Positions 1-53,297 of a DNA stretch of 64,000 nt are shown here, piece by piece. This DNA comes from Candidatus Haliotispira prima (GTDB taxonomy: Bacteria; Spirochaetota; Spirochaetia; SP-2023): the NCBI GenBank assembly GCA_029867005.1, contig CP123443.1, positions 744,001 to 808,000 of the forward strand. Reading direction: 5' to 3'. Position numbers and translations under genes: made by a program. Position 1 is the stretch's first letter. The number at the start of each line of letters is the position of its first letter. Below the pieces are notes generated by a model. The model saw nothing but the letters and a program-made list of their open reading frames with translations, did no database searches and had not been told where the DNA came from.

Positions 1-2
1 GT

Positions 3-2678: not shown

Positions 2679-3078
2679 AAAAGTATATTTTATTAAAACA
2701 GTTAATAACCTATGGAATGGTTGGTGTGGTTACGACACTCTTAAAACTAATTACTCTATATGTACTAAGAGATGTATTTCAGATTGTAACTTTTGTAAGT
2801 CTTTCAGTTTCATATCTTGTTGCAGTAATCATACATTTTATTGCGAATAATTATCTTACTTTTAAAAAAAATAGAAAAAAATTACAAGAATGATAATAAT
2901 AAGATATCTGTTAGCTTTTTGTATTGCCTTTTTATTTTATACTGGAAATATTTGGATATTAAATGATGTTATTGGTCTAGTATTTTATATAGCAGTTGCA
3001 ATAGGCCTTTTTCTAAGTTTTATTTTTAACTATTTCTTATATAAAAAATGGGTCTGGACAAGTTTAGATGATTTATAG
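2675..3078 (+). pseudogene. GtrA-family membrane protein, frameshifted in a poly-A tract
   Basis: Two overlapping frames together make one GtrA-like protein. The first (2675-2893) has two membrane helices ending with the typical NNYLTFKK. The second (2890-3078) has the other two, ending NYFLYKKWVW. GtrA proteins are about 130 residues with four helices and flip or assist lipid-linked sugars. One extra A in the A7 run at 2875-2881 would fuse the halves into about 134 residues. The last codons lie inside the left inverted repeat of the IS element, so the insertion landed at the gene's end. Either a genuine frameshift, an A-tract on/off switch, or a sequencing error. The two halves could also be translated separately via the ATGA overlap. 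Confidence 0.7.
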
Positions 3079-3782: not shown

Positions 3783-3947
3783 TCAAAAATTTGTATTTAT
3801 GCAGTATTTTCAAAATATATTAAGGTTTCTCTAATTAGGCTGTAATTTGGGGTAGGTTTTTTTGGGGGGATATCGAAATTCTAGAAAAGTGAGTGGATAG
3901 AAGTGAAGATATTTTTAAAAGAGTCTGCTAATGGGGAGGAGTATACA

Positions 3948-4013
3948 AAGTCGTAACAAGCTAGCCCCAGGTAAATAACACGGGTGCGGTACGGCCTGGA
4001 TCACCTCCTTTCA
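3948..4013 (+). rRNA. 16S rRNA 3'-end fragment, copy 1 (degenerate)
   Basis: The sequence begins AAGTCGTAACAAG (3948-3960) and ends GGATCACCTCCTTTC (near 3998-4012). These are the highly conserved last stretches of bacterial 16S rRNA including the anti-Shine-Dalgarno core CCTCC. The middle is expanded and altered relative to a real gene, and nothing upstream resembles the rest of 16S, so this is a relic and not a functional gene. Confidence 0.75.
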
Positions 4014-37306: not shown

Positions 37307-38032
37307 ATGAATTATCGAGAAATAAGCCGGGTAAAGCGGCCGGCAAACAGCCCTTCCGGCAATCGGACATCTTTGATTCGCTTGGCCTTGCTGGCCGGAT
37401 GCGTTTTGATCTTCAGTTCCTGTAGCAGCTATCTGGCCGATGGTATTCGGGTGGCTTGGGCCAAGCAGTTGTTCCGGCAAGGCAGTTATCAGGAAGCTTT
37501 GCTCTATTTTCTCGATGCCGAACAAAATCGCAGCCAAAATATCCAAAGGCAGTATGGCAAGCTGCCTCCCGGTGACTCCAAATTACTGGTTTTGCATCGC
37601 ATTCGGTACAATATTGGTTTGGTCTACATTGCTCTGGGCCAGAGCAATGTGGCGATTGACAGTTGGCAGTCCATTTTGGACCGGGGTGGCTTGGATGCGG
37701 ACAAAACTTTGCAGTTCACTGTCCTTTACAATATTGGTTTGCTTTACAGCCAAGCCGGCCGGAACAAAGAAGCGAGGCTCCATTTGGTCCGGGCTGTTGA
37801 TCTGCGCCCGGAACACAATGATGCCCGGAAAGCTTTGGAGCTCTCCCTCCGGCACCTAAAGCAGAATCAGTTGAGCCAACAGTCCCAAAAGGACGATAAA
37901 ATTCCGATCGAGTCTCTGCCATCGCAGTCCGGCATCGGCGACGAACAGATCCTGCACTATATTTCCCGCCAAGCTAATTACCGCTTCAAGCGGGATGCCA
38001 AGATACAGCAGGTGTTGCGTAATGATTGGTAG
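37307..38032 (+). CDS. batC: BatC, TPR lipoprotein
   Basis: 241 residues from ATG 37307. An N-terminal signal helix LALLAGCVLIFSSCSS ends in a lipobox-like FSSC, so it is probably a lipoprotein. TPR repeats follow (LFRQGSYQEALLYFLDAE, YNIGLVYIALGQSNVAID, YNIGLLYSQAGRNKEA). In bat operons BatC is the TPR partner of the VWA proteins. It overlaps the batD start. Confidence 0.85.
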   Translation: MNYREISRVKRPANSPSGNRTSLIRLALLAGCVLIFSSCSSYLADGIRVAWAKQLFRQGSYQEALLYFLDAEQNRSQNIQRQYGKLPPGDSKLLVLHRIRYNIGLVYIALGQSNVAIDSWQSILDRGGLDADKTLQFTVLYNIGLLYSQAGRNKEARLHLVRAVDLRPEHNDARKALELSLRHLKQNQLSQQSQKDDKIPIESLPSQSGIGDEQILHYISRQANYRFKRDAKIQQVLRNDW

Positions 38033-41000
38033 GGTACGGCACCGCAATAAAGCTGTAAACGATCGGTTGCAATATGGCCTCCGAGTGGGTTTGCGGCGTA
38101 ATCCTTGTCCGTCTCTGTCGGCTATTGCCCTATTTGGGGTTGTTTGTTTGACTGTTTTCCCGGGATTGCCGGAAGTTTTCCGGTTGCCGATAGCCTCTGT
38201 GCTTGCGCAGGAAGAGCCGGATGCCCGGGAACAATACACTCCCGAGCCAAATATCCAAGAGCCGGATATTTGGGCAGAAAGTGCCCAAGAGCGGTATATC
38301 CAGGAACTGGGTATTCCGGAGTCGGGCATCCAAGAGCCGGATACTTGGGAACAAGGTGCCCGGGAGGGATCTGTTCCGGGGCCGGATATCCGAGAGTCCG
38401 ATATCCAAGAACAGAATCTTTTGGAATTGGAAGCCGATCTTCCGGAGCCGGGCACGGAACAAAGCCAAAGCCAAAGCCAAAGTCAGCAGGAAAACGACAA
38501 ACCGGTGACAGAAACAGCCCGGGTTGGCTCCGGTTTCCGTCCGCCGCTCAGTTTGCCGCCAAATATGAGTGAAGACAGTGGTCAGGCGGAGATTCTAAGC
38601 GATAAGGTGTATTTGCAGAGTTATTTTAATGTGCTGTTCAAGACACCTTTCCAACTTGAGGAAGATGTGCGCATTACGACTGTCGGGCAGAGTAATGTTG
38701 CCGGCCGTCCGCAGGTGCTGCGCACCGAGAGGTTGGATTATTCGCGCTATCGCACAGAGGAGGGCCGGGCCCGCCGGGCCTTTATCCTCGGTTTTTATAC
38801 GGTCAGCCCCGGGCTTCACCAGCTGCCTCAGATTCGCTTTCAAAGCACGGAGAGCCGCAGTGTCTGGCAAAGTCCGGCCCTGCCGTTTGCCTCCTTCCGG
38901 GTTGATGAAGGCGACTTGGTTCTGCCCGTGAATGTCGAGATGAACCGGTTGCCGGAGAAAGTGTATCCGGGCCAGAACATTCTGCTCAATATTTGGGCCA
39001 ATCGGGTGGAGGCCATCGACCAGAGTTCTTTGCCCCGGAACTTGGATTTTGCGGGTTTTCTGATACAGAAAAGCCCGGTTACGCCGGAAGTGGAGCGTGT
39101 GCAAATCCAAGGGAAAGATGTCTATCGGGTTTCTTTGGGCACTTGGCTGCTCAACCCCGTAGAACGGGGTTTGCTCAGAATCCCGCCCATTTCGGCCTTG
39201 GTCATGGGCTTGGAACGCCGCACTGCGGCCCGACAACTGGAAGTTCTGCCCTTGCCACCCAATAGGTATTTGTCCGGAGAGAGGGCGGAGCCCGATACCT
39301 CGCAGGCTTCCGGCTCTGCCGTTGCCATTGGTCAGTTTACGGTGTCTTTCCGGTTTGCCGGGCAGGAGACGGGGGAGACTCCCAAGATTCAGGAGCTTGA
39401 GGAAATTCAAGAGTCTCCGCTTGAGGAGGAACATCCCCAGACAGAACAGGGCCAAGTTCCGGAATTTGCCAAAGATGAGTTGATCCGTGTGGTGTTACGC
39501 ATCACCGGCCACGGCAATATTCATATTTTGTCCTTTCCCGATGTGGAGGTGCCTGCCAATTTGGTGTTGCTTCGAAGTGAAGAAAGAGAATCTCTTGCCC
39601 CGGACTTTGCCAAGGCGGAACTGTATGGCTGGCGCGAGAAGGAATTTATTTATAAAGCGAAAAGCTCCGGAGAATACCGGATCGGCGTTGACAGTTTCCA
39701 TTTCTTTGACCCGGAACGGGGGCTGTGGCTCCGCAGTGAGGTACAGGAGTTGACTCTTCAGGTGGTCAATCTGGTGACGCAGTCCTACTATTCCAACTTG
39801 GAGGATATGCATTTTTCCGGTGTGTCTGTGTTTTTCTTCAATTTGATGTACCGGTTGCAAAAATACGCCTTTTATATTTGTTTGGCGATTTTCCTTTTGA
39901 CCGGAGTTTACTTTTTGTCGGAAGTGCCCGGTCTGCCCGGTTTGCCGTTGTTGGACAGGCTGAAGGGACGGAAACAGATACAGCGCGGCCGCTACGCCCG
40001 CTTGCCGGCGGGGTTTGCAGACGGTGACAGGGCAGGGCAGGGGGGCCCGTCGGAGGGCCAAAGCAGAAACGGCCCGCCGGAGTCCGGGGCCTTGCCGGAT
40101 AAGCTTGCGGGGCTTTCTGTGCCCGACCGTTCGTTCCGTTCTGTCCGTTTCAGTATCCGGCAAAAGATTTTTGTGTCCCCATTGTGTCAGTCGGTGCTGC
40201 GATTTGGAACGGAACATCGCAGAGTTTTGTTTATGTTGCTGATTACGGTGTTTATTGGTTTGTTATACGGCTTTCTGTTGATGGCCGGTCTCAACTCGGA
40301 GTCGGGGGCGAAACAGTATTATTTACAGCTTCCCATTCCCGAGAGCAATAGTAATAATACCAGTACTAACAATAGTACTCGTATGGCGGGGCCGGAGGCA
40401 GGCCGGGAGACGGACAGAAACGGTCTCGGTGGGGCAGAACAGTTGGACAATATGTCTCATCTGCCGGGGAATTTGGCCAATGTGTCTCTGTCTTTTTACC
40501 GGAATGGTTTGCTGCCGGAAGCCTTGCAGGTTGCCTACCTCCATTATTTCTACCAGCCCCTGCAACCGGCTTCGCGCCGCTTGGTTTCTTCTTTGCGTAT
40601 ACAGCAGGGGCTGGACCCCGGTCTGCCGGGTTTCTTTTTCTGGCCGCTGCATTTCCACCATGCCTGGCGGTACTTGGCTGTCTGCTTGGTTTTGGCTGCC
40701 TCGGTCTACTGCCTTTACCGGAAAAAGAGAGACGGAGATGGCTCCCCATACGGTGGTTCTGAATTTCAGGATGATAAAGAAAATGATTTCCTCTCTGATT
40801 ACCGCTATACGGAACAACACCACCATTTGATCAAGACAAGGTTACTGCTGATTTATCGCAATTACGCTATTGTTGTGGGGTTGTTGCTCCTGAGTCTCAG
40901 CATACCGGTGCGTTTTTCGCTGGCCGTTAATACTTTGCCGGACTTGCACTTGGAGGCCATCCCTTACCACAGCAGTGGCCGTAAGCCCGGAGAACGAGTC

Positions 41001-41198
41001 GGAAACAATGTCGAAAACGGTGCCGCCACAGAAAAAGAAGAAACAGCAAGGCGCAAAAACCGGAAGAATCGCTTAGATGCAGGTGAGTTAGTCAAGATCA
41101 AAGGCCGGGCCGGTGATTCTTATACGCTGGTTATTGGCGAGAAACAGGACCAGGGTTGGCTGAAGGAACAGCAACTATTTTTACTGCCGGAGTACTAG
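38022..41198 (+). CDS. batD: BatD-like large membrane protein
   Basis: About 1058 residues from ATG 38022; an ATG at 37995 inside batC is the alternative. A signal-like helix (LSAIALFGVVCLTVFPG) is followed by a degenerate repeat stretch (EPNIQEPDIW, ELGIPESGIQEPDTW, GPDIRESDIQEQ) and SQSQSQSQ. Beta-sandwich domains typical of BatD follow (YRVSLGTWLLNP, FDFAGFLIQKSPV-like text). Helices lie near 620-640 (YAFYICLAIFLLTGVYFL) and several toward the C-terminus. The C-terminal tail has VKIKGRAGDSYTLVI, an SH3-like element. It completes moxR-DUF58-x-batABCD. Confidence 0.85.
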   Translation: MIGRVRHRNKAVNDRLQYGLRVGLRRNPCPSLSAIALFGVVCLTVFPGLPEVFRLPIASVLAQEEPDAREQYTPEPNIQEPDIWAESAQERYIQELGIPESGIQEPDTWEQGAREGSVPGPDIRESDIQEQNLLELEADLPEPGTEQSQSQSQSQQENDKPVTETARVGSGFRPPLSLPPNMSEDSGQAEILSDKVYLQSYFNVLFKTPFQLEEDVRITTVGQSNVAGRPQVLRTERLDYSRYRTEEGRARRAFILGFYTVSPGLHQLPQIRFQSTESRSVWQSPALPFASFRVDEGDLVLPVNVEMNRLPEKVYPGQNILLNIWANRVEAIDQSSLPRNLDFAGFLIQKSPVTPEVERVQIQGKDVYRVSLGTWLLNPVERGLLRIPPISALVMGLERRTAARQLEVLPLPPNRYLSGERAEPDTSQASGSAVAIGQFTVSFRFAGQETGETPKIQELEEIQESPLEEEHPQTEQGQVPEFAKDELIRVVLRITGHGNIHILSFPDVEVPANLVLLRSEERESLAPDFAKAELYGWREKEFIYKAKSSGEYRIGVDSFHFFDPERGLWLRSEVQELTLQVVNLVTQSYYSNLEDMHFSGVSVFFFNLMYRLQKYAFYICLAIFLLTGVYFLSEVPGLPGLPLLDRLKGRKQIQRGRYARLPAGFADGDRAGQGGPSEGQSRNGPPESGALPDKLAGLSVPDRSFRSVRFSIRQKIFVSPLCQSVLRFGTEHRRVLFMLLITVFIGLLYGFLLMAGLNSESGAKQYYLQLPIPESNSNNTSTNNSTRMAGPEAGRETDRNGLGGAEQLDNMSHLPGNLANVSLSFYRNGLLPEALQVAYLHYFYQPLQPASRRLVSSLRIQQGLDPGLPGFFFWPLHFHHAWRYLAVCLVLAASVYCLYRKKRDGDGSPYGGSEFQDDKENDFLSDYRYTEQHHHLIKTRLLLIYRNYAIVVGLLLLSLSIPVRFSLAVNTLPDLHLEAIPYHSSGRKPGERVGNNVENGAATEKEETARRKNRKNRLDAGELVKIKGRAGDSYTLVIGEKQDQGWLKEQQLFLLPEY

Positions 41199-41608
41199 AA
41201 GGTTCAACAGGCTCACCTACCATTCGACAAGCTCACCCGGCCCCTTGGTCTAATGGACCCCAATAATTTCTACTATTGTCAGGTGGGTGAGGCACTCGAA
41301 CTCCATCTAAGGCCCCCTTGCCAAGAGGTTCGACAGGCTCACCTACCGATAAGCCCACCTGGCCCTTGGTCTAATGGACCCCAATAATTTCTACTATTGT
41401 TAGGTGGGTGAGGTACTCGAACCCCGTCTAAGGCCCCCCCTTGCCAAAATTCGACAGGCTCACCTACCATTTTACAGGATCACCTACCATTCGACAGACT
41501 CGTCCACCGGCAAGCTCACCCGGCCCCTTGGCCTAATGGACCCCAATAATTTCTACTATTGTCAGGTGGGTGAGGCACTCGAACCCCGTCTAAGGCCCCC
41601 CCTTGCCA
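41199..41608 (+). repeat. REP-like array 1 (three units)
   Basis: Three imperfect units of about 86 bases start near 41239, 41361 and 41522. Each reads GGCCCCTTGGTCTAATGGAC, CCCAATAATTTCTACTATTG, AGGTGGGTGAGGYACTCGAA and ends with CCCCCTTGCCAA. Linkers hold TTCGACAGGCTCACCTACC, the near-inverse of GGTGGGTGAGGTACTCGAAC, so units and linkers can pair as BIME-like doublets. Small internal stems exist (GGTC/GACC, CAATA/TATTG). The last unit ends with the TTGCCA used as the -35 box of the next gene. Confidence 0.85.
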
Positions 41609-41631
41609 AAATCTCTAAACGAATATACAAT
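41603..41631 (+). promoter_or_regulatory. Promoter of lipoprotein locus A
   Basis: TTGCCA (41603-41608), 17-base spacer, TACAAT (41626-41631). The -35 box is the last six bases of a REP-like unit. AGGAG at 41658-41662 precedes the ATG at 41669. Confidence 0.7.
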
Positions 41632-41668
41632 CAGACTCTAAATCCAGACCAATTTGCAGGAGTACCCC

Positions 41669-42720
41669 ATGAAAAAGCAAGATAACGTATTGACGGATAT
41701 CGGACTAAACAGTAGAATATCCAATATCCAATATCCAATATCCAATATCACACTACTTTAGAAAGTAAGCACTTATTTCTTTGTATACTAACTAGTTATA
41801 AATATTTTTACTCCTTTTTCTTACATTCCCGTTTTCGCCTTTTTGTCTTTCTTTTTCTCTTTTCTACCGGTGTGACTTTGTTCGGCTGCGCCCCGATCTC
41901 GGACGACAGCAATGACCCGCCTGCGGCCTCTCCCGTAAAATCAACCGTTTCCCTTACTGCCACTGCTGTGGTCTCTTCTGTGCGGTTGGAAATGAGCAGT
42001 ACTTTAGCCATTGCCAATATAGGGGCGGTTATTCGTTTAGCTACGGAGGCGGCTCCCACCAAGACCCAAGCGGAAGCCAATGCGGGTTATGTAAATCTGG
42101 AGATTACAGCCGGCGGCACAAGGAAATTTAGTATCAGCCAACACTATGGCAGTGATTTTACTAATGGCCTTACTCTGGCTGATGTCCTTACCGCCAATAC
42201 CCAATACAAACTGTATCTGTTTTTTGACCCGAATGCCATTAATCCGATTGCAGGAGTAGACGGAGTCACCCTTACCAATGGTGTGGCAGCCCTTTCATTT
42301 ATCACCGCTACGCTACCATCGGCAGGGGATGTTGTATGGAATGACGCATGGACAAATGAGCAGTTTGTGGGAAGCTTGCCCGAATGGAGCTACAGCCAAA
42401 ATCAAAAAGGGGTCTTTGTCGCTTATACAAAAATCAATTTTTCTTCTTTTACTGGCATATCATTTACTAGTCGTGCAGCAAATGATATACTTTCTCAATC
42501 TATAGGATTTTTTGCGTTCAGTAGAGTTAGCTCTACCCCGGGATTTATTTTCAATATATCTAAACTGGGTGGTAGCTATCCTGATTCCGATGGATACTAC
42601 TATGTGATAAGTGCTGATGATACAAGGACAGTACTCGGAAACGCTTTTATGTTAGAAATTACAGAAACTCCTCCACCGGCTACACTCATAGTACCTCTTA
42701 CTCGTTATAGTAGTCCGTAA
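41669..42720 (+). CDS. Variable lipoprotein locus A, type 1, frame OFF
   Basis: From ATG 41669 (good ribosome site AGGAG) the leader reads MKKQDNVLTDIGLNSR and enters a 5-unit AATATCC tract, then stops at TAG 41759. The frame offset by one is open from the tract through RFRLFVFLFLFSTGVTLFGC, a lipoprotein signal peptide with its Cys codon at 41887. It continues to 42720 and has no ATG, GTG or TTG before the hydrophobic core. One more unit (or two fewer) would join them into 352 residues. The mature part (APISDDSNDPP, then AVIRLATEAAPTK, TAGGTRKFSISQHYGSDF) has no family I recognise. It is probably surface or periplasmic, anchored by lipid. Confidence 0.75.
41716..41749 (+). repeat. AATATCC tract, locus A, 5 units
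   Basis: Four full AATATCC units plus AATATC, beginning 47 bases after the ATG. The ATG frame and the lipoprotein frame differ by one base; +1 unit restores it. Confidence 0.9.
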
Positions 42721-42777
42721 TGGTATTTTGCTTGGGCCTGAGTTGTCTCTCTAAGCGGAATCTCTTTTAATTGTAGG

Positions 42778-42846
42778 AACCACGAAAGGTCCACTGGACA
42801 GAACCGGTTTTTACTCTTGTACATTTGTTTCGTGCTTTTCGTGGTT
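42778..42846. repeat. Inverted repeat AACCACGAAA
   Basis: AACCACGAAA (42778-42787) and TTTCGTGGTT (42837-42846) bracket 49 bases between loci A and B. CACGAAA-type repeats of this kind are scattered in many bacterial genomes; function unknown. Confidence 0.5.
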
Positions 42847-42908
42847 TAACAGACGGAATTAGTCTCTACTACAGTAGATTGGTTCGGGCATGTTGAGACA
42901 CACGCTCA

Positions 42909-42996
42909 CCCGGCCCCTTGGTCTAATGGACCCCAATAATTTCTACTATTGTCAGGTGGGTGAGGTACTCGAACCCGATCTAAGGCCCCCTTGCCA
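42909..42996 (+). repeat. REP-like array 2 (one unit)
   Basis: One unit of the family described at 41199-41608, preceded by GCTCACCC. It ends with TTGCCA at 42991-42996, the -35 box of locus B. Confidence 0.85.
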
Positions 42997-43019
42997 AAAT
43001 CTCTAAACGAATATACAAT
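42991..43019 (+). promoter_or_regulatory. Promoter of lipoprotein locus B
   Basis: TTGCCA (42991-42996), 17-base spacer, TACAAT (43014-43019). Confidence 0.7.
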
Positions 43020-43056
43020 CAGACTCTAAATCCAGACCAATTTGTAGGAGTACCCC

Positions 43057-44084
43057 ATGAAAAAGCAAAATAACGTATTGACGGATATCGGACTAAACAG
43101 TAGAATATCCAATATCCAATATCCAATATCCAATATCACACTACTTTAGAAAGTAAGCACTTATTTCTTTGTATACTAACTAGTTATAAATATTTTTACT
43201 CCTTTTTCTTACATTTCCGTTTTCGCCTTTTTGTCTTTCTTTTTCTCTTCTCTACCAGTGTGACTTTGTTCGGCTGCGCCCCGATCTCGGACGACAGCAA
43301 TGACCCGCCTGCGGCCCCTCCGGTAAAACCAAGCATTTCTTTCTCTGCCACCGCTGTAGTATCTTCTGTACAATTGGAAATGAGCAGTAGTGTAGCAATT
43401 ACAAAGATAGGGGCCGTTGTTCGCCTGGCAACGGAAATAGCCCCCACCAAAGCAGAAGCAGAAGGCAACGCAGGTTATGTAAGCCTTGATATTACGGCTG
43501 GCGGCACAAGGAAATTCAGGATAAGCCAACACTATGGCAGTGATTTTACGGATGGCCTTACTCCGGCCGATGTCCTCACACCCGGAGAGAACTATAAGCT
43601 TTACTTGTACTTTCCCGATATAGCCTCAAATACAGAAATTACGGGGATCAGTATTACGGACAATGTGGCAGAAGTTGGCTTTATGACCGCCAGCCTACCC
43701 GCCGAAGGTGATTCTAAATGGCTGAACAGTAATGGTGCATGTGTGGCGAGCATGGATGCATACTATTTTATGCAATCACAAACAGGTGTCGCAGTATGCT
43801 ACTTTTATATAAACTATATTCCTTCCGTCGTTGAAGTATCATTTAAAAATAACAATGGTACATTCGATAACATTGGCACTTATGTTGCTAATACAGCAAT
43901 TCCTGCTCGTGCTTTTCATTTTGCATATGGGTTAATTTCCGGCTATACATCCAACTCAACTAATTACTATGGCTATTGGATCGGTGGAGATAACAGGAGT
44001 ACTATACAAGATGTGATCAGGTACGAAATTACGAACAGTATAGGGATACCGGTAGGATTTGATATCCCCGTAACTCGTTATTAG
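43057..44084 (+). CDS. Variable lipoprotein locus B, type 1, frame OFF
   Basis: The 5' region is almost identical to locus A (same leader, same 5-unit tract, same signal peptide ending TLFGCAPISDD). From ATG 43057 the frame stops just after the tract; the lipoprotein frame is one base off and open to 44084. One added unit would give 344 residues. The first half of the mature part matches locus A (SISFSATAVVSSVQLEMSSS, RLATEIAPTKAEAE, TRKFRISQHYGSDF). The second half from about 43600 is unrelated in detail (YKLYLYFPDIASN, FYINYIPSVVEVSF). Shared front and divergent back suggest recombination between paralogues. Confidence 0.75.
43104..43137 (+). repeat. AATATCC tract, locus B, 5 units
   Basis: Four full units plus AATATC. 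Same phase as locus A: +1 unit would restore the frame. Confidence 0.9.
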
Positions 44085-44109
44085 ATATTCCCCCCGCCCA
44101 TTTCTCTCC

Positions 44110-44543
44110 GCTCAGTTGGCAAGGGGCTTTTGCAATCCCCCCCCTTGGTCTAATGGACCCCAATAATTTCTACTATTGTCAGGTGGGTGAGGTACTCGAA
44201 CCCGGTCTAAGCCCCCCTTGCCAAGGTTCGGCAGGCTCACCTACCATTTGACAGACCCACCTACCATTCGACAGACTTGTCCATCGACAAGCCCACCCGG
44301 CCCCTTGGTCTAATGGACCCCAATAATTTCTGCTATTGTCAGGTGGGTGAGGTACTCGAACCCCATCTAAGGCCCCCTTGCCAAGGTTCGACAGGCTCAC
44401 CTACCATTTGACAGACCCACCTACCATTCGACAGACTTGTCCATCGACAAGCCCACCCGGCCCCTTGGTCTAATGGACATAAATAACTTCTACCATTGCA
44501 GATGGGTGAGGTACTCGAACCCTGTATGAGGCCCCCCTTGCCA
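44110..44543 (+). repeat. REP-like array 3 (three units)
   Basis: Units start near 44140, 44299 and 44459, with two linkers of the form TTCGACAGGCTCACCTACC followed by ATTTGACAGACCCACC. An inverted piece of the unit end (TTGGCAAGGGGC, 44116-44127) opens the array. The third unit has the ACATAAATAACTTCTACCAT variant and ends in the -35 box of locus C. Confidence 0.85.
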
Positions 44544-44566
44544 AACTGTCTAAATGAATATATAAT
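44538..44566 (+). promoter_or_regulatory. Promoter of lipoprotein locus C
   Basis: TTGCCA (44538-44543), 17-base spacer, TATAAT (44561-44566), a near-consensus sigma70 promoter. GAGGAG (44608-44613) precedes the ATG at 44621 by seven bases. Confidence 0.75.
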
Positions 44567-44620
44567 CTGTTCTCAAGTCCACTTTGGCCGTTTTGGCCAC
44601 TTTCTCAGAGGAGTACATTC

Positions 44621-45691
44621 ATGAAAAATCAAAACAACATATTGACTAACATCAGTCAAAACAGTACAATATCCAATATCCAATATCCAATATCCAATAT
44701 CCAATATCGTTCACATTCGCTCACATTAATTCGATCCTTTTATCTAAATTTCCCCCGTTTCTTCTGCTTTTTTTCCATTTTTTTCGTTCATCTGTTTCTG
44801 TCCGCCTGTGTCGATCTGGCCACAAGCTCCACTCCTAATGCTACGTCCAAACACACCGTAAGCTTCCAGACGGACGGGGGCAGCGCAGTGCCTTCGATGG
44901 AAGTAACCAGTGGCACTGTGCTAAGCCAAACCATAACGGCCCCCACCAAAGCGGTAAGTGGCGGCACGACCTACTACTTTGGGGACTGGTACACCGTGGA
45001 CGCAGCCACGGGGCACACGGGTAAGACCAAGTACGATTACACCAAGCCGGTGACGGGCAATATGACGCTCTATGCCCGCTGGTACACCGAGCAACCTGCC
45101 GATAAGGCCGCCTTAAAGGTACTGATTACTACTTTGGGAGATACTGCGGACCTCAACCACATCGATGTGCGGAAAGTGACAGATCTGAGCCAACTCTTTA
45201 AAGATCAGTATACCTTTAACGGGGATGTTTCGGGTTGGGATGTTTCTAACGTGAAAAATATGGGAGAAGTGTTCCGAAGTGCTTCCGCTTTTAGCCAACT
45301 CATAGGAGATTGGGATGTCTCCGGTGCTACAAATATGTATGCTATGTTTTCCGGTGCTACAAAATTCAATCAACCCATAGGAGATTGGGAGGTCCCCAAA
45401 GTTAAAAATATGGTATTTATGTTTTATAATACCCCTTTTAATCAACCAATAGCATCCTGGAATGTTTCCGGTGTTGAAAATATGGATTCTATGTTTCATA
45501 CTGCCAAAAAATTCAATCAATCTATAAGAGATTGGAATGTCTCCGGTGTTGTTAATATGGACCATATGTTCCATGGGACCAGTGCCTTTGATCAGGATAT
45601 TTCAGGTTGGACTGTAAGTCAGGTAACGGGTCGTAACATGACTTTCTTGCGTAGTGGTATTAGAGAGGCTTATAAACCTGCGGGATTTTGA
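44621..45691 (+). CDS. Variable lipoprotein locus C, DUF285 type, frame ON
   Basis: The only locus of the eight read in one frame from its ATG: 356 residues. Leader MKNQNNILTNISQNST, tract-encoded ISNIQYP cycle, then signal peptide FFCFFSIFFVHLFLSAC with lipobox LSAC. A Listeria-Bacteroides repeat domain (about residues 85-145; VSFQTDGGSAVPSME, GDWYTVDAATGH, MTLYARWYTEQ) precedes six BspA-like DUF285 repeats of about 25 residues (FNGDVSGWDVSNVKNMGEVF style). Such repeats form LRR-like solenoids in surface proteins of spirochaetes and Bacteroidetes that bind host or neighbour molecules. In frame because of a 10-base near-duplication (GTTCACATTC) after a 6-unit tract. Confidence 0.85.
   Translation: MKNQNNILTNISQNSTISNIQYPISNIQYRSHSLTLIRSFYLNFPRFFCFFSIFFVHLFLSACVDLATSSTPNATSKHTVSFQTDGGSAVPSMEVTSGTVLSQTITAPTKAVSGGTTYYFGDWYTVDAATGHTGKTKYDYTKPVTGNMTLYARWYTEQPADKAALKVLITTLGDTADLNHIDVRKVTDLSQLFKDQYTFNGDVSGWDVSNVKNMGEVFRSASAFSQLIGDWDVSGATNMYAMFSGATKFNQPIGDWEVPKVKNMVFMFYNTPFNQPIASWNVSGVENMDSMFHTAKKFNQSIRDWNVSGVVNMDHMFHGTSAFDQDISGWTVSQVTGRNMTFLRSGIREAYKPAGF
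44668..44708 (+). repeat. AATATCC tract, locus C, 6 units
   Basis: Five full units plus AATATC. Followed by GTTCACATTCGCTCACATT, which has ten more bases than the same place in loci D and E. That shift replaces one missing unit and puts the gene in frame. Confidence 0.9.
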
Positions 45692-45702
45692 TAGCACATA
45701 CG

Positions 45703-45760
45703 GTAAGGATATTCAGAGAACGGCGTGCGGTACCGCACGCCGTTCTCTGAATATCCTTAC
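45703..45760. repeat. Perfect 58-bp palindrome after locus C
   Basis: Two 29-base arms (left arm GTAAGGATATTCAGAGAACG then GCGTGCGGT) are exact reverse complements with no spacer. The hairpin would be very stable and is followed by TTGTTCC, not a good T run. It could end transcription or be a mobile palindromic element. Related palindrome at 50231-50272, half copies at 47158-47195 and 48498-48530. Confidence 0.9.
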
Positions 45761-45830
45761 TTGTTCCCTGTATTCTCCCTCTCCTTCTTCCTCAATCGCC
45801 TCTTCGGGGTAGCCCCACTCCTTGCCAAAG

Positions 45831-45950
45831 TTCGGCAGGCTCACCTACCTTTCGACAGGCCCACCCGGCCCCTTGGTCTAATGGACATAAATAACTTCTA
45901 CCATTGTAGATGGGTGAGGCACTTGAACCCCGCCTGAAGCTCCCTTGCCA
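45831..45950 (+). repeat. REP-like array 4 (one unit)
   Basis: TTCGGCAGGCTCACCTACC linker then one unit (ACATAAATAACTTCTACCAT variant), ending in TTGCCA at 45945-45950. Confidence 0.8.
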
Positions 45951-45973
45951 AACTGTCTAAATGAATATATAAT
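45945..45973 (+). promoter_or_regulatory. Promoter of lipoprotein locus D
   Basis: TTGCCA (45945-45950), 17-base spacer, TATAAT (45968-45973). Confidence 0.75.
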
Positions 45974-46027
45974 CTGTTCTCAAGTCCACTTTGGCCGTTT
46001 TGGCCACTTTCTCAGAGGAGCACATTC

Positions 46028-47151
46028 ATGAAAAATCAAAACAACGTATTGACTAACATCAGTCAATACAGTATAATATCCAATATCCAATATCCAATAT
46101 CCAATATCCAATATCGCTCACATTAATTCGATCCTTTCATCCAAATTTTCCCCGTTTCTTCTGCTTTTTTTCCGTTTTTCTCATTCATCTGTTTCTGTCC
46201 GCCTGTTCAGACTTGGGCACGGGCCCCCAACGCCAATACACCGTCATCTTTCAGACGGACGGCGGCAGCGCAGTGCCTTCGGTGCAGGTAGCCGGCGGGA
46301 CTACACTGAGTCAAATCATCGTGGACCCCACCAAAGCGGCAAGTGGCGGTACCACCTACTACTTTGGAGACTGGTACACTGTGGACGCAGCCACGGGGCA
46401 CACGGGCAAGACCAAGTACGATTACACCAAGCCGGTGACGGGCAATATGACGCTCTACGCCCGCTGGTACACCGAGCAACCCGCGCGTCCTGAAGATTTG
46501 AAGCTACTGATTACCACTGATAATGGCGATTTCAACCACATTGATGTGCGACAGGTAACGGATATGGACGAACTCTTTGCAAGTAAGAATACCTTTAACG
46601 GGGATATTTCAGGTTGGGATGTTTCCGGTACTACTGATATGAATTTTATGTTTTTTCAGGCCACAGCTTTCAATCAACCCATAGGAGATTGGGATGTCTC
46701 CAACGTTACGAATATGAGTCGTATGTTTTATCGTGCCGAAAAATTCAATCAACCGATAGGGGATTGGGATGTCTCCGGCGTTATTAATATGTCTGATACA
46801 TTTTTTCGTGCTGAAGAATTCAATCAACCCATAGGAGATTGGGATGTCTCCGGTGCTACAAATATGAGTGCGATGTTTTATCGTGCCGAAAAATTTAATC
46901 AATCCATAGAATCCTGGAATGTCTCTAAAGTCACAAATATGAGTGCGATGTTTTTTGAAGCCACAGTTTTTAATCAACCGATAGGATCCTGGAATGTCTC
47001 CGGTGTTAGCTATATGTTTAATATGTTCAATAAAGCCATAGCCTTTAACCAAAATATCTCAGGTTGGACTGTAATCCGGGTAACAGGTTCTACAGACATT
47101 TTTAAAGACAGCGGTATTAGCACCGCTTTTAAACCTTCAAAATTTCGGTAG
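46028..47151 (+). CDS. Variable lipoprotein locus D, DUF285 type, frame OFF
   Basis: From ATG 46028 (after GAGGAG) the leader MKNQNNVLTNISQYS and 6-unit tract lead to TAA at 46124. The lipoprotein frame (one base off) is open from 46057, contains RFFCFFSVFLIHLFLSAC (lipobox LSAC, Cys codon at 46204) and ends at 47151. One more unit gives 376 residues. A Listeria-Bacteroides repeat domain is followed by seven DUF285 repeats (FNQPIGDWDVSNVTNMSRMF style) and a closing FNQNISGWTV. No ATG, GTG or TTG lies in that frame before the signal peptide, so the body should be silent as sequenced. Close paralogue of locus E. Confidence 0.78.
46075..46115 (+). repeat. AATATCC tract, locus D, 6 units
   Basis: Five full units plus AATATC; +1 unit restores the frame. 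Confidence 0.9.
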
Positions 47152-47157
47152 TCTTAA

Positions 47158-47290
47158 GGGTACGGTCCGCCGTTGCCTGAATATCCTCACTTGCCAAGGT
47201 TTCCGGCCCCTTGGTCGTAATGGACCCAAATGATTTCGACTATTGTAGATGAGTGAGGCACTCGAACCCCGCCTGAGCCGACCCCTTGCC
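47158..47290 (+). repeat. Half-palindrome and REP-like array 5 (one unit)
   Basis: GGGTACGGTCCGCCGTTGCC then TGAATATCC (47158-47187) is a decayed right arm of the palindromes at 45703 and 50231. One REP-like unit follows (GGTCGTAATGGACCC variant) and ends with the -35 box of locus E. Confidence 0.7.
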
Positions 47291-47314
47291 AAACTGTCTA
47301 AATGAATATATAAT
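47286..47314 (+). promoter_or_regulatory. Promoter of lipoprotein locus E
   Basis: TTGCCA (47286-47291), 17-base spacer, TATAAT (47309-47314). Confidence 0.75.
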
Positions 47315-47368
47315 CTGTTCTCAAGTCCACTTTGGCCGTTTTGGCCACTTTCTCAGAGGAGCACATTC

Positions 47369-48492
47369 ATGAAAAATCAAAACAACGTATTGACTAACAT
47401 CAGTCAATACAGTACAATATCCAATATCCAATATCCAATATCCAATATCCAATATCGCTCACATTAATTCGATCCTTTCATCCAAATTTTCCCCGTTTCT
47501 TCTGCTTTTTTTCCGTTTTTCTCATTCATCTGTTTCTGTCCGCCTGTTCAGACTTGGGCACAAGTTCTCAAGGCCAATACACCGTCAGCTTTCAAACGGA
47601 CGGGGGCAGCGCAGTGCCTTCGGTGACCGTAGCCGGCGGGACTACACTGAGTCAAATCATCGTGGACCCCACCAAGGCCGCAAGTGGCGGTACCACCTAC
47701 TACTTTGGAGACTGGTACACCGTGGACGCAGCCACGGGGCACACGGGCAAGACTAAGTATGATTACACCAAGCCGGTGACGGGCAATATGACGCTCTACG
47801 CCCGCTGGTACACCGAGCAACCCGCGCGTCCTGAAGATTTGAAGCTACTGATTACCACTGATAATGGCGATTTCAACCACATTGATGTGCGACAGGTAAC
47901 GGATATGGACGAACTCTTTGCAAGTAAGAATACCTTTAACGGGGATATTTCAGGTTGGGATGTTTCCGGTACTACTGATATGAATTCTATGTTTTTTCAG
48001 GCCGAAGAATTCAATCAACCCATAGGAGATTGGGATGTCTCCAACGTTACGAATATGAGTCGTATGTTTTATCGTACCGAAAAATTCAATCAACCGATAG
48101 GGGATTGGGATGTCTCCAACGTTATTAATATGTCTAATATATTTTATCGTGCCGAAGAATTCAATCAACCCATAGGAGATTGGGATGTCTCCGGTGCTAC
48201 AAATATGAGTTGGATGTTTTATCGTGCCGAAAAATTTAATCAATCCATAGAATCCTGGAATGTCTCTAAAGTCACAAATATGAGTGCGATGTTTTTTGAA
48301 GCCACAGTTTTTAATCAACCGATAGGATCCTGGAATGTCTCCGGTGTTAGCTATATGTTTAATATGTTCAATAAAGCCATAGCCTTTAACCAAAATATCT
48401 CAGGTTGGACTGTAATCCGGGTAACAGGTTCTACAGACATTTTTAAAGACAGCGGTATTAGCAGCGCTTTTAAACCTTCAAAATTTCGGTAG
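47369..48492 (+). CDS. Variable lipoprotein locus E, DUF285 type, frame OFF
   Basis: Same length and plan as locus D and nearly identical to it, including the leader, signal peptide (LFLSACSDLGTSS) and seven DUF285 repeats. Differences cluster in a few repeats (for example ATAFNQPIGDW in D against AEEFNQPIGDW in E) and in the first residues after the lipobox. From ATG 47369 the frame ends just after the 6-unit tract; the body frame is one base off. One more unit gives 376 residues. The pair D/E looks like a recent tandem duplication of about 1.34 kb including the REP unit and promoter, partly diversified since. Confidence 0.78.
47416..47456 (+). repeat. AATATCC tract, locus E, 6 units
   Basis: Five full units plus AATATC; +1 unit restores the frame. 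Confidence 0.9.
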
Positions 48493-48497
48493 TCTTA

Positions 48498-48849
48498 AGG
48501 GTGCGGTACGCCGTTGCCTGCATATCCTCACTTGCCAAGGTTTCCGGCCCCTTGGTCGTAATGGACCCAAATAATTTCTACCATTGCAGATGGGTGAGGC
48601 ACTCGAACCCCGCCTGAGGCCCCCCCCTTGGTCTAACGGACATAAATAACTTCTACCATTGTAGATGGGTGAGGTACTCGAACCCTGTCTGAGGCCCCCC
48701 TTGCCAAGGTTCGACAGGCTCACCTACCATTTGACAGGTTCACCTACCGGCAAGCCCATCCGGCCCCTTGGTCTTAATGGACCCAAATAATTTGGGCTAT
48801 TGTAGGTGGGTGAGGTACTCGAACCCCGCCTGAGTCCCCCCCCTTGCCA
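48498..48849 (+). repeat. Half-palindrome and REP-like array 6 (three units)
   Basis: A decayed palindrome arm (GGGTGCGGTACGCCGTTGCC, 48498-48517) is followed by three units starting near 48545, 48625 and 48762. The first two are directly abutted, sharing CCCCCCC. A linker with TTCGACAGGCTCACCTACC precedes the third, which carries the CCAAATAATTTGG variant. Confidence 0.8.
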
Positions 48850-48872
48850 AAATCTCTAAACGAATATACAAT
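48844..48872 (+). promoter_or_regulatory. Promoter of lipoprotein locus F
   Basis: TTGCCA (48844-48849), 17-base spacer, TACAAT (48867-48872). Confidence 0.7.
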
Positions 48873-48917
48873 CTACCTGCAAATCTATTTTGCCCATTTT
48901 CTCAGAGGAGCACATCC

Positions 48918-50218
48918 ATGAAAAATCAAAATAACATATTGACTAACATCAGTCAAAACAGTACAATATCCAATATCCAATATCCAATATCCAATATCCA
49001 ATATCACTCACATTAATTGGATCCTTTCATCCAAATTTCTCCCGTTTCTTCTGCTTTTTTTCCATTCTCTTCATTCACTTATTTTTTGTTGCCTGCGTCG
49101 ATCTGAACATAAACCCTTCTACACCCGGCTCTTCTACGGTCAAGTACACTATTAGTTTCCAAACGGCCGGAGGCAGCGCAATGCCTTCGGTGACGGTAAG
49201 CGGTGGCACTGCGCTAAGCAAAACCATTGTGGCCCCCACCAAGGCCGCAAGCGGTGGCACGACCTACTACTTTGGAGACTGGTACACCGTGGACGCAGCC
49301 ACGGGGCACACGGGTAAGACCAAGTACGATTACACCAAGCCGGTGACGGGCAATATGACGCTCTATGCCCGCTGGTACACCGAGCAACCTGCCGATAAGG
49401 CCGCCTTAAAGGTACTGATTACTACTTTGGGAGATACTGCGGACCTCAACCACATCGATGTGCGGAAAGTGACAGATCTGAGCCAACTCTTTAAAGATCA
49501 GTATACCTTTAACGGGGATGTTTCGGGTTGGGATGTTTCTAACGTGAAAAATATGGAAGAAGTGTTCCGAAGTGCTGCCGCTTTTAGCCAACTCATAGGA
49601 GATTGGGATGTCTCCGGTGCTACAAATATGTATGCTATGTTTCGTTTTGCTAAAGAATTCAATCAACCGATAGGAGCTTGGAATGTCTCCAATGTTGAAA
49701 ATATGTGGGGTATGTTCCATGGTGCTGTAAAATTCAATCAACCCATAGGAAGTTGGAATGTCTCCAATGTTAAAAATATGAAGTCTATGTTTAGTGAAGC
49801 CAAAGCTTTTAATCAACCTATAGAAGCCTGGGATGTCTCCAATGTTGCTAATATAACATATATGTTTAATAGTGCTTCAAAGTTCAATCAACCTATAGAG
49901 GGTTGGAATATTTCCGATAGTGCTACCAGTATGCTTGGTCTCTTTCGTCTGGCTGGAGAATTCAATCAACCCATAGAAGCCTGGGATGTCTCCAATGTTG
50001 AAAATATGGCGTATATGTTTAATCAGGCCCCGGCGTTTAATCAGCCGATAGGGGCTTGGAATGTCTCGAAGGTTGGAAATATGGAATATATGTTTAATCA
50101 GGCCAGAGTTTTTGATCAGGATATTTCAGGTTGGACTGTAACCCAGGTAAATGATTATACAGACATTTTCAAAGACAGCGGTATTGGCCTGACTCATAGA
50201 CCCCTAAGATTTCGATAG
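48918..50218 (+). CDS. Variable lipoprotein locus F, DUF285 type, frame OFF
   Basis: ATG 48918 follows GAGGAG. The 6-unit tract leaves the ATG frame one base off from the body frame, which runs through FCFFSILFIHLFFVAC (lipobox FVAC, Cys codon at 49094) to 50218. One more unit gives 435 residues. The body is a Listeria-Bacteroides repeat domain then nine DUF285 repeats, two more than D/E and three more than C. The second repeat (FRSAAAFSQLIGDWDV) is shared with locus C while the rest is shared with locus G, which is a mosaic pattern. An internal ATG (49181) lies after the lipobox and would give an unexported fragment. Confidence 0.78.
48965..49005 (+). repeat. AATATCC tract, locus F, 6 units
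   Basis: Five full units plus AATATC; +1 unit restores the frame. Confidence 0.9.
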
Positions 50219-50230
50219 TCTATGATACGG

Positions 50231-50272
50231 ATTCAGGCAACTGCGTGCGGTACCGCACGCAGTTGCCTGAAT
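50231..50272. repeat. Perfect 42-bp palindrome after locus F
   Basis: Two 21-base arms (left arm begins ATTCAGGCAACTGCGTGCGG) are exact reverse complements and share the core TGCGGTACCGCA with the 58-bp palindrome. The outer arm sequence differs from that copy at several places, but pairing is kept on both sides. Confidence 0.9.
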
Positions 50273-50512
50273 ATCTCCCTTGCCAAGGTTTCCAACCCCT
50301 TGGTCTTAATGGACCCAAATAATTTGGACTATTGTAGATGGGTGAGGCATCCGAACCCCGTCTGAGACCCCTCTTGTCCAATCCCCTAAAGGTTCGACAG
50401 GCTCACCTACCGGCAAGCCCATCCGGCCCCTTGGTCTTAATGGACCCAAATAATTTGGGCTATTGTAGGTGGGTGAGGTACTCGAACCCCGCCTGAGTCC
50501 CCCCCCTTGCCA
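50273..50512 (+). repeat. REP-like array 7 (two units)
   Basis: Units start near 50295 and 50424, with a TTCGACAGGCTCACCTACC linker between. The second ends with TTGCCA at 50507-50512, the -35 box of locus G. Confidence 0.85.
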
Positions 50513-50535
50513 AAATCTCTAAACGAATATACAAT
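50507..50535 (+). promoter_or_regulatory. Promoter of lipoprotein locus G
   Basis: TTGCCA (50507-50512), 17-base spacer, TACAAT (50530-50535). Confidence 0.7.
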
Positions 50536-50580
50536 CTACCTGTAAATCTATTTTGCCCATTTTCTCAGAGGAGCACATCC

Positions 50581-51895
50581 ATGAAAAATCAAAACAACAT
50601 ATTGACTAACATCAGTCAAAACAGTACAATATCCAATATCCAATATCCAATATCCAATATCCAATATCCAATATCCAATATCGCTCACATTAATTCGATC
50701 CTTTTCTCCAAATTTTCCCCGTTTCTTCTGCTTTTTTTCCATTTTTTTCATTCATCTGTTTCTGTCCGCCTGCGTCGATCTGAACATAAACCCTTCTACT
50801 CCCGGCTCTTCTACGGTCAAGTACACTATTAGTTTCCAAACGGCCGGAGGCAGCGCAGTGCCTTCGGTGACGGTAAGCGGTGGCACTGCGCTAAGCAAAA
50901 CCATTGTGGCCCCCACCAAGGCCGCAAGCGGTGGCACGACCTACTACTTTGGAGACTGGTACACCGTGGACGCAGCCACGGGGCACACGGGCAAGACCAA
51001 GTACGATTACACCAAGCCGGTGACGGGCAATATGACGCTCTACGCCCGCTGGTACACCGAGCAACCTGCCGATAAGGCCGCCTTAAAGGTACTGATTACT
51101 ACTTTGGGGGATACTGCGGACCTCAACCACATCGATGTGCGGAAAGTGACAGATCTGAGCCAACTCTTTAAAGATCAGTATACCTTTAACGGGGATGTTT
51201 CGGGTTGGGATGTCTCTAACGTGAAGAATCTAAGTGAACTGTTCCAGAATGCCATCGTCTTCGATCAACCGGTAGGAGATTGGGATGTCTCCGGTGCTAC
51301 AAATATGTATGCTATGTTTCGTCTGGCTAAAGAATTCAATCAACCGATAGGAGCTTGGAATGTCTCCAATGTTGAAAATATGTGGGCTATGTTCCATGGT
51401 GCTGTAAAATTCAATCAACCCATAGGAAGTTGGAATGTCTCCAATGTTAAAAATATGAAGTCTATGTTTAGTGAAGCCAAAGCTTTTAATCAACCTATAG
51501 AAGCCTGGGATGTCTCCAATGTTGCTAATATAACATATATGTTTAATAGTGCTTCAAAGTTCAATCAACCTATAGAGGGTTGGAATATTTCCGATAGTGC
51601 TACCAGTATGCTTGGTCTCTTTCGTCTGGCTGGAGAATTCAATCAACCCATAGAAGCCTGGGATGTCTCCAATGTTGAAAATATGGCGTATATGTTTAAT
51701 CAGGCGCCGGCGTTTAATCAGCCGATAGGAGCTTGGAATGTCTCGAAGGTTGGAAATATGGAACATATGTTTAATCAGGCCAGAGTCTTTGATCAGGATA
51801 TTTCAGGTTGGACTGTAACCCAGATAAATAATTATACAGACATTTTCAAAGACAGCGGTATTGGCCTGACTCATAGACCTCTAAGATTTCGATAG
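50581..51895 (+). CDS. Variable lipoprotein locus G, DUF285 type, frame OFF (other phase)
   Basis: ATG 50581 follows GAGGAG. Its tract has eight units, two more than its near-twin locus F, so the ATG frame runs on as an 83-residue product ending at 50832. The body frame, with FFHFFHSSVSVRLR-type sequence replaced by a normal signal peptide and ACVDLNINPSTP, needs one unit fewer (or two more). The repaired length is 435 residues, exactly that of repaired locus F. It carries nine DUF285 repeats; the second (LSELFQNAIVFDQPVGDWDV) differs from F and C, the others match F. Tract differences between twins show that the tract changes faster than the gene. Confidence 0.8.
50628..50682 (+). repeat. 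AATATCC tract, locus G, 8 units
   Basis: Seven full units plus AATATC, the longest tract of the family; -1 unit restores the frame. Confidence 0.92.
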
Positions 51896-51900
51896 TCTAT

Positions 51901-52264
51901 GGCAAGGGAGATATTCCGGCCCCTTGGTCTTAATGGACCCAAATAATTTGGACTATTGTAGATGGGTGAGGCACTCGAACCCCGTCTGAGGCCCCCCTTG
52001 CCCAATCCCTAAAGGTTCGACAGGCTCACCTACCGACAAGCTCATTCGGCCCCTTGGTGGTAATGGACCCAAATGATTTGGACTATTGTAGATGGGTGAG
52101 GCACCCGAACCCCGTCTGAGGCCCCTCTTGTCCAATCCTCTAAAGGTTCGACAGGCTCACCTACCGACAGGCTTATCCGGCCCCTTGATGGTAATGGACC
52201 CAAATGATTTGGACTATTGTAGATGGGTGAGGCACTCGAACCCCGTCTGAGTCCCCTCTTGTCC
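51901..52264 (+). repeat. Inverted fragment and REP-like array 8 (three units)
   Basis: GGCAAGGGAGATATTC (51902-51917) is the reverse complement of 50269-50284 beside the 42-bp palindrome, so part of that region has flipped here and the palindrome is missing. Three units follow, starting near 51919, 52047 and 52180, each separated by a TTCGACAGGCTCACCTACC linker. The last ends in TTGTCC, a weaker -35 box. Confidence 0.8.
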
Positions 52265-52287
52265 AATCCCCTAAATGAATGTACAAT
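52259..52287 (+). promoter_or_regulatory. Promoter of lipoprotein locus H
   Basis: TTGTCC (52259-52264), 17-base spacer, TACAAT (52282-52287). The -35 box is one base further from consensus than in the other loci. Confidence 0.6.
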
Positions 52288-52323
52288 CAGGCCCTAAATT
52301 TATTTTCTCAGAGGAGCACTTTT

Positions 52324-53297
52324 ATGAAAAATCAAAACAACACATTGGCTAACATTGGTCAAAACAGTACAATATCCAATATCCAATATCCAATATCCAA
52401 TATCCAATATCACTCACATTAATTGGATCCTTTCATCCAAATTTCTCCCGTTTCTTCTGCTTTTTTTCCATTCTCTTCATTCACTTATTTTTTGTTGCCT
52501 GCGCCCCGATCTCGGACGACAGTGACCCGCCCGCAAAATCAACCGTTTCCCTTACGGCCACCGCTGTGGTCTCCTCTGTGCAATTGGAGATGAGCAGTAT
52601 TTTAGCACTCACCAATATAGGGGCGGTTATTCGCTTGGCTGCGGAAACAGCCCCCACCAAGGCAGAAGCCGAAGCCAATGCGGGTTATGTCAGTCTGGAG
52701 ATTACGGCCGGGGGCACAAGGAAATTTAGCATAAGCCAACACTATGGCAGTGACTTTACGGATGGATTTACTCTGGCGGATGTCCTTAGTGCCAACACTC
52801 AATACAAACTGTATTTGTTTTTTGACTCCAATGCCATTAATCGGATTGAAGGGGCCACGCTGACAAATGGTGTGGCAGCCCTTTCATTTACCACCGCTAC
52901 GCTGGCCCCGGCAGGAGATGCGGTATGGGCCCGTTCACTGGCAGGGGAACAGTTGGTAGGCAGTCTGGCCGAATGGAGCTATAGCGAAAATCAGAAAGGG
53001 GTCTTTGTAGCCTATGCACAAGTGATCAATCCTTTTACTAATCTTGCATTGACTACTCGTACAGCAGAGGATGCCTTAAAATACACCTTAGGTACCATTA
53101 CGCTGGGTTCATTTGGCTCTGACCCGTTATTCCTTTCCGGTATTTATAAATTGGGGACTGGCTATCCTGATTCAGATAACTATTACTACATAATAGGTAC
53201 GGAAAAAACAGAAAAAATACTCGGAAAGACTTTCAGGTTAGAAGTTACAAGTTTCTCCCGGTCAATTCGACTCCAAGTACCACTCACGCGGTATTAG
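52324..53297 (+). CDS. Variable lipoprotein locus H, chimeric type 1, frame OFF
   Basis: ATG 52324 follows GAGGAG by seven bases. The 6-unit tract leaves the body one base off; +1 unit gives 326 residues. The 5' part (tract flank and signal peptide FCFFSILFIHLFFVAC) is that of locus F, a DUF285 gene. The body after the lipobox Cys (APISDDSDPP, then VSSVQLEMSS, TRKFSISQHYGSDF) is that of loci A and B. The switch falls at TGCG of the Cys codon. The gene is thus a fusion of one family's export signal with another family's mature domain. The body has no recognised family. Confidence 0.75.
52371..52411 (+). repeat. AATATCC tract, locus H, 6 units
   Basis: Five full units plus AATATC; +1 unit restores the frame. 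Confidence 0.9.

Follow-up and report, generated by a model that had tools for sequence, protein, structure and literature searches.

What is a tandem repeat of seven bases doing inside a coding sequence, between a start codon and the body of a predicted lipoprotein? The question is raised by the window, which is the whole 64,000-nucleotide (nt) stretch at positions 744,001-808,000 of contig CP123443.1 (Candidatus Haliotispira prima); here eight predicted lipoprotein loci, called A to H and placed below in window positions, each carry a tract of AATATCC units. The answer that we consider probable is that these tracts belong to a genome-scale, default-off frame switch of predicted surface lipoproteins, resembling that of the opa genes of Neisseria. 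The only well-formed start of each predicted lipoprotein gene would lie, as a rule, 47 bases before the AATATCC tract, and the length of the tract, altered by replication slippage, likely sets whether ribosomes enter the lipoprotein frame. When the tract is out of frame, ribosomes from the leader start would usually stop after about 30 codons, and each out-of-frame lipoprotein is likely made only in the few cells with a changed repeat length. We infer from the DNA that the tracts mutate by slippage and that cells switch, with no lipoprotein made from out-of-frame copies.

Layout of the eight loci

The initial annotation had placed AATATCC tracts at eight loci, and all eight were located at their positions; matches to two units were absent from 100 shuffles. 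The perfect runs in A to H measure 34, 34, 41, 41, 41, 41, 55, and 41 nt. These contain 4, 4, 5, 5, 5, 5, 7, and 5 full units, each plus a six-base partial unit, which the initial annotation had taken as full (giving 5, 5, 6, 6, 6, 6, 8, and 6). Each locus has the same order of elements: promoter P1, ribosome site, ATG, tract, a pyrimidine-rich signal-peptide segment, the lipobox Cys, and a mature body of 265-374 residues. P1 is σ70-like, with TTGCCA (TTGTCC in H) separated by 17 bp from TACAAT or TATAAT. All eight loci have an AGGAG-type site, and the distance from the ATG to the tract is exactly 47 nt in each. It had also been correctly observed that the ATG and body frames agree in C and differ in the other seven: only C has a single open frame from ATG to stop (356 codons), while the body frame is offset by 2 in A, B, D, E, F, and H and by 1 in G. 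Likewise, no stop interrupts the body frame between the tract and the lipobox Cys at any of the eight loci, as annotated. Unit number does not account for the in-frame state of C, since C has five full units just as D and E do; its in-frame state is due to ten extra bases just 3' of the tract.

Distribution of the module in the genome and beyond

The genome is a single contig of 3,251,735 bp, of which 100 stretches plus the window, 2.04 Mb in all, were read. Rather than the eight loci of the initial annotation, this sample holds 231 AATATCC tracts, and several hundred are expected genome-wide. A match to three exact units occurs 1,107 times in the genome, counting overlaps, and never in a reversed control; the total comes to about 368 loci when the sample is scaled by length or about 409 when the 1,107 matches are divided by the 2.7 found per sampled locus. 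(Neither the 231 tracts nor the estimate of about 370-410 counts arrays of variant units.) Tracts are present in 33 of the first 60 stretches; in all but one of the 33 (L105) they are confined to a single strand.

For 15 of the 231 tracts there was no closed body of 180 codons or not enough upstream sequence (14 had fewer than 900 bases following in the stretch, and one began at the stretch edge). Of the 216 remaining tract loci, one has a broken body (L143, + strand, 3103), leaving 215 with full data. A hydrophobic core and lipobox Cys were found by our rule in 211 of these, the misses being three that read HAC and one glycosyltransferase-like body.

The three-unit match was absent from the other 391 genomes of the phylum sample; the 59 other genomes drawn as relatives are all of the same class, none nearer. 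Arrays of at least four AATATCC units do occur in many unrelated phyla, in at least 55 stretches (L031-L086) and one viral contig, and none of the 57 checked has the leader layout described here. The flagellar genes of the host genome mark it as a spirochaete, with matches to FlcA (548.6 bits, cut-off 300) and a BB0259-type flagellar lytic transglycosylase (271.8 bits, cut-off 234).

The leader start and the body frame

A start codon lies upstream of the tract in all 215 loci, exactly at -47 in 203 (200 ATG, 3 GTG), at -45 in 8, and elsewhere in 4. In a logo of 144 distinct leaders the three letters of the ATG are conserved in 141, 142, and 141. The tract leaves the body frame open in 215/215 loci, and in each of the 211 loci with a Cys this frame stays open from the tract to that Cys, compared with an average of 44.7 after shuffling. 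Such openness would be needless if translation began later, which argues that the frame gates expression. In addition, the absence of ATG, GTG, or TTG before the hydrophobic core, first seen in the window, is nearly complete at scale: 2 of 4,926 body-frame codons are such starts, versus a mean of 119.8 in 30 dinucleotide shuffles (lowest 94). Consequently, two marks of a contingency locus are present, a tandem unit of 7 nt, which is not divisible by three, between start and body, and the lack of a start that bypasses the repeat.

Body families and their phase

The bodies of C, D, and F match PF03382 (187.5, 232.6, and 294.3 bits, cut-off 25), and C also matches TIGR02167. By clustering, 18 of the 215 sampled bodies group with this PARCEL/InlB family and 194 form a family that we label X. 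The one family X body tested has no match in Pfam or NCBIfam. Among 5.8 billion proteins, a single family X sequence gave 106 matches and an alignment gave 138; every one of the 106, and each of the 120 listed for the alignment, falls on one contig, taken to be this genome. The X bodies have a median dN/dS of 0.28-0.43 across divergence bins, and broken bodies amount to 1 of 216 tract loci; the purifying selection on X bodies argues that X proteins are made at times. At L168:4007 (+), genome position 1219008, the leader and a seven-unit tract stand before a frame with its own ATG that, by reading, is glycosyltransferase- and methyltransferase-like and not a lipoprotein.

Leader start and body share a frame in 12 of the 215 loci. 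(Two further loci with offset 0, which would bring the total to 14, are not counted: one has a leader frame that ends after 17 codons, and the other is the broken body.) The in-frame loci are unevenly spread over the families: 3/194 in X, 7/18 in PARCEL/InlB, 2/2 in a two-locus family, and 0/1 for the glycosyltransferase-like body. The X share differs from one third with p ~2e-29 and from the PARCEL share with a Fisher p of ~1e-6, both values being overstated because the loci are related by descent. Only the PARCEL/InlB family, whose offsets split 7/6/5, looks random in phase. Family X is probably held default-off, with only a few of some 400 lipoproteins made per cell at any time, and the PARCEL/InlB family would then be the freely variable form of the same module.

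Phase is also steadier in X than in PARCEL. Among pairs with bodies at least 85% identical, it is common to 80/84 X pairs versus 2/7 PARCEL pairs (Fisher p 5e-5). It is extremely unlikely that errors of sequencing or assembly at the repeats make the frames look wrong; although everything here derives from a single assembly, phase is consistent within sequence classes over many dispersed loci and differs between families, and random error would not do so.

Perfect runs measure 34-43 nt in 205/215 loci. Within 34-44 nt, a range picked after the lengths were seen, 167 of the 194 X loci have exactly one in-frame and one out-of-frame length available, and of those 167, 164 are at the out-of-frame length, 2 are at the in-frame length, and 1 is outside the range. 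Most likely, an X locus alternates between two neighbouring lengths: selection holds it off, but it visits the on length and returns. A two-length switch held off would give a steady phase, intact bodies, and pure arrays.

Exchange of modules and bodies

Phase changes in X number 27 when mapped on the body tree versus 10 on the module tree, which indicates that modules and bodies have been exchanged. Locus H of the window is such a hybrid, having a tract-to-Cys segment identical to that of F joined at the Cys codon to a body from the A/B family. This exchange, together with the finding that the two halves of 112/191 X bodies have different nearest neighbours, is what would be seen if family X were a silent archive with stable tracts, in which a body is expressed only once recombination has placed it behind an in-frame module. 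We nevertheless give this idea little credence. Strong mosaicism is rare, with strongly incongruent halves in 2/191 X bodies; none of the sampled loci is nearly identical to an in-frame X locus (best 79-84%); and promoter, ribosome site, and start are all retained at each copy, although an archive would have no use for them.

Tractless relatives and variant arrays

A search for the leader gave 40 hits without a perfect 34-nt tract, comprising 19 tractless relatives, 13 with variant units, 4 with short or altered tracts, and 4 lost or remnant arrays. The last four (L158, - strand, 5756, where no body is visible; L090, + strand, 19296; L141, + strand, 15954; and L112, + strand, 8949) are left out of the tractless count. 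At L112:8949 (+) a leader remnant without a tract, with ATA replacing ATG, runs in frame into a frame that by eye is DNA methyltransferase-like.

In the 19 relatives the leader is kept and the tract has decayed, and in 18 of them the leader ATG or GTG is fused in frame with the body. An early stop interrupts one; the longest has reached no stop after 882 codons. (At L106, + strand, 12904, the residue taken as the 'Cys' is actually Phe.) Their 361 codons before the core include 15 start codons. These fusions argue that the leader start works, that a long amino-terminal extension is tolerated, and that the lack of bypass starts is tied to the tract. The tractless in-frame relatives may be regarded as the locked-on form of the module. 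They cluster apart as long lipoproteins (L104, L117, L122, L162, L165, L180, and others).

The on/off gating proposed in the initial annotation therefore holds in one part, namely that the leader ATG functions as a start and that access to the body depends on the frame, given 18/19 fusions and nearly no bypass starts. Free random flipping, the other part, does not agree with 3/194 in frame in X. Nor does unit number alone set the phase. The routes to the in-frame state vary, being tract length in some loci, a shorter leader in L092, and the insertion 3' of the tract in C, such that some phase changes come from insertions or deletions (indels) outside the tract.

Although interrupted arrays are absent from the 231 tracts, other units do occur. 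Ten loci have CATATCC arrays after a first AATATCC unit (among them L092:3468, L093 (-), L123 (-), L125, L143, and L151), and three neighbouring loci at L114:15757-18771 have CTATCCA arrays that differ in unit number. The conversion of whole arrays to another unit indicates that array turnover happens.

A promoter-like pair within the leader

The initial annotation had missed one element of the locus layout, which overlaps the first repeat unit. Inside the leader lies a σ70-like pair, TTGACn-17-TAnAAT, whose AAT is supplied by the first repeat unit. Of 144 distinct leaders, 137-143 keep the bases of TTGAC at -26 to -22 and 144 keep the TA at -3/-2. In particular, leader codon 8 is TTG in 126/126 distinct leaders, whereas the 80 other Leu codons are CTA (46), CTG (31), and three others; this invariance argues for a signal at the nucleotide level. 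At least 10 of 12 consensus bases of the embedded promoter are present in 211/215 tract loci, 1/19 tractless relatives, and 1/215 shuffled sequences, the match being partly automatic in that the tract supplies the AAT of the -10 box. For comparison, the upstream P1, most often TTGCCA-17-TACAAT, has at least 10 of 12 consensus bases in 152/213 loci versus 4/213 when shuffled. The predicted promoter-like pair goes with the switchable module.

Could the out-of-frame state then be the working one? The leader would be a short upstream frame (mostly 30-33 codons), and the body would be read from transcripts of the embedded promoter by ribosomes entering inside the tract, where all three frames are free of stops and encode the same heptapeptide. 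The association of the embedded promoter with tract loci, the frozen phase of X, and its intact bodies under purifying selection are all consistent with this. We regard it as unlikely, however: with starts nearly absent from the body frame, initiation would be left with a near-cognate AUA or AUC lacking a ribosome site, the tract-derived AAT makes the promoter match less telling, and neither the conserved leader start and its ribosome site nor the purging of bypass starts would be explained.

The frame switch may be combined with the embedded promoter in a bolder proposal, which we think has only a small chance of being right. Transcription starting at the embedded promoter would open the tract and drive slippage at some 400 leak-proof default-off loci, giving a transcription-driven, genome-wide switch of surface identity.

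Weighing the frame switch

Several observations weigh against a frame switch acting through slippage. First, the scarcity of start codons is partly not frame-specific. In 132 loci the other two frames have 4/3,256 and 13/3,343 starts versus 1/3,243 in the body frame, and since these frames are also start-poor, part of the depletion is composition; moreover, the start codons of the tractless relatives are mostly one shared TTG codon. Second, X shows about 10 changes of offset in 22.4 substitutions per site, a slow pace for a contingency tract. PARCEL offsets have changed 10 times over 3.1 substitutions per site (3.2 changes per substitution per site, compared with 0.45 in X), but changes in unit number per divergence are only about twofold apart (24 over 22.4 in X, 6 over 3.1 in PARCEL), and many of those in X are substitutions in the last unit. 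In PARCEL the offset changes exceed the 6 unit-number changes, which argues that indels outside the tract contribute to its lability. Third, at L141 (+ strand, 15954), where little more than a remnant of the tract is left, the body is still out of frame. Finally, the embedded promoter is left unexplained.

The low numbers of offset changes in both families, and the differing kinds of indel from which in-frame copies arose, fit a simpler idea, namely that loci are stably on or off and shift phase only over evolutionary time through indels in or near the tract. This seems quite improbable, because genes that have long been off should decay, yet only one of 216 is broken and dN/dS is ~0.3 even between recent X copies, while the purging of bypass starts and the homogenisation of the arrays speak for a switch that is active. 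Taken together, the observations still favour the default-off frame switch.

Positions of the loci and neighbouring features

All eight loci lie on the + strand. Locus A (41603..42720) has P1 at 41603, ATG at 41669, the embedded -35 and -10 elements at 41690 and 41713, the tract at 41716-41749, and the Cys at 41887; its family X body runs to 42720, and its leader frame has 30 codons. In B (42991..44084), also of family X, the same elements lie at 42991, 43057, 43078 and 43101, 43104-43137, and 43275. Locus C (44538..45691), with a PARCEL/InlB body, has them at 44538, 44621, 44642 and 44665, 44668-44708, and 44807, and D (45945..47151), with a body of the same type, at 45945, 46028, 46049 and 46072, 46075-46115, and 46204. 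In E (47286..48492), assigned to PARCEL/InlB by clustering, they are at 47286, 47369, 47390 and 47413, 47416-47456, and 47545; in F (48844..50218), which has a PARCEL body, at 48844, 48918, 48939 and 48962, 48965-49005, and 49094. Locus G (50507..51895), placed in the PARCEL family by clustering, has the longest tract of the eight (50628-50682) and a leader frame of 83 codons, with P1 at 50507, ATG at 50581, embedded elements at 50602 and 50625, and Cys at 50771. In H (52259..53297) P1 is at 52259, the ATG at 52324, the embedded -35 (TTGGCT) at 52345, the -10 at 52368, the tract at 52371-52411, and the Cys at 52500, with a family X body behind the F-type tract and signal segment.

Between the lipoprotein loci lie intergenic repeats of 75-160 bp (41199-41468, 44141-44544, 48548-48700, and 51915-52275); three copies fold no better than shuffles. 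Just 5' of the cluster, a reading frame of 1,067 codons (37995-41198) carries a 75-bp imperfect repeat and has no match in Pfam or NCBIfam. Positions 1-4000 of the window have 29% G+C, and the remainder is mostly at 45-55%.

Comparison with known systems

With about 370-410 loci, this would be one module repeated throughout the genome of a spirochaete, mostly before a family whose listed homologues all lie in that genome. A literature search, with most subscription papers outside its reach, recognised no spirochaete system of this kind. Variable, held-off, and locked-on states side by side provide a natural experiment on the tuning, leak-proofing, and loss of repeat switches, and a promoter that shares its -10 box with the repeat raises the testable question of whether the start of transcription affects repeat stability.

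Opa proteins are beta-barrels. The bodies tested here match PARCEL/InlB models or nothing in Pfam and the unit is AATATCC, so membership in the Neisseria opa family was rejected. The likeness to opa lies in the arrangement: opa is a dispersed multigene surface family in which a non-triplet repeat in the signal-sequence region sets the frame, and the in-frame share is below one third, gonococcal in-frame genes numbering a mean of 1.7 versus 3.4 expected by chance (PMC13183285). The opa repeat is a CTCTT pentamer in about 11 genes. The present module differs further in its predicted lipoproteins, the position of the repeat before the hydrophobic core, the promoter-like pair in the leader, and the tractless locked-on relatives.

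The vlhA genes of Mycoplasma gallisepticum likewise form a large family of lipoprotein genes, each with a repeat, of which most copies are taken as off (PMC6258824). The repeat in vlhA is GAA, sits about 40 nt upstream of where transcription begins, and works through the promoter, which needs exactly 12 units; the AATATCC repeat instead separates the start codon from the body and alters the frame. Judged against the vlhA arrangement, the AATATCC repeat is 3' of P1 and of the start codon, yet it is at the -10 box of the embedded promoter.

PARCEL/DUF285 surface proteins offer a comparison for the bodies themselves, since C, D, and F match them; most sampled bodies, those of family X, fall outside. 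Finally, as in the contingency loci of Haemophilus, Neisseria, and Campylobacter, a tandem repeat lies within the reading frame and unit number sets the frame. A review counts several host-restricted species with at least 10 phase-variable genes (PMC11868660); unlike those contingency loci, a single module is found here at several hundred loci.

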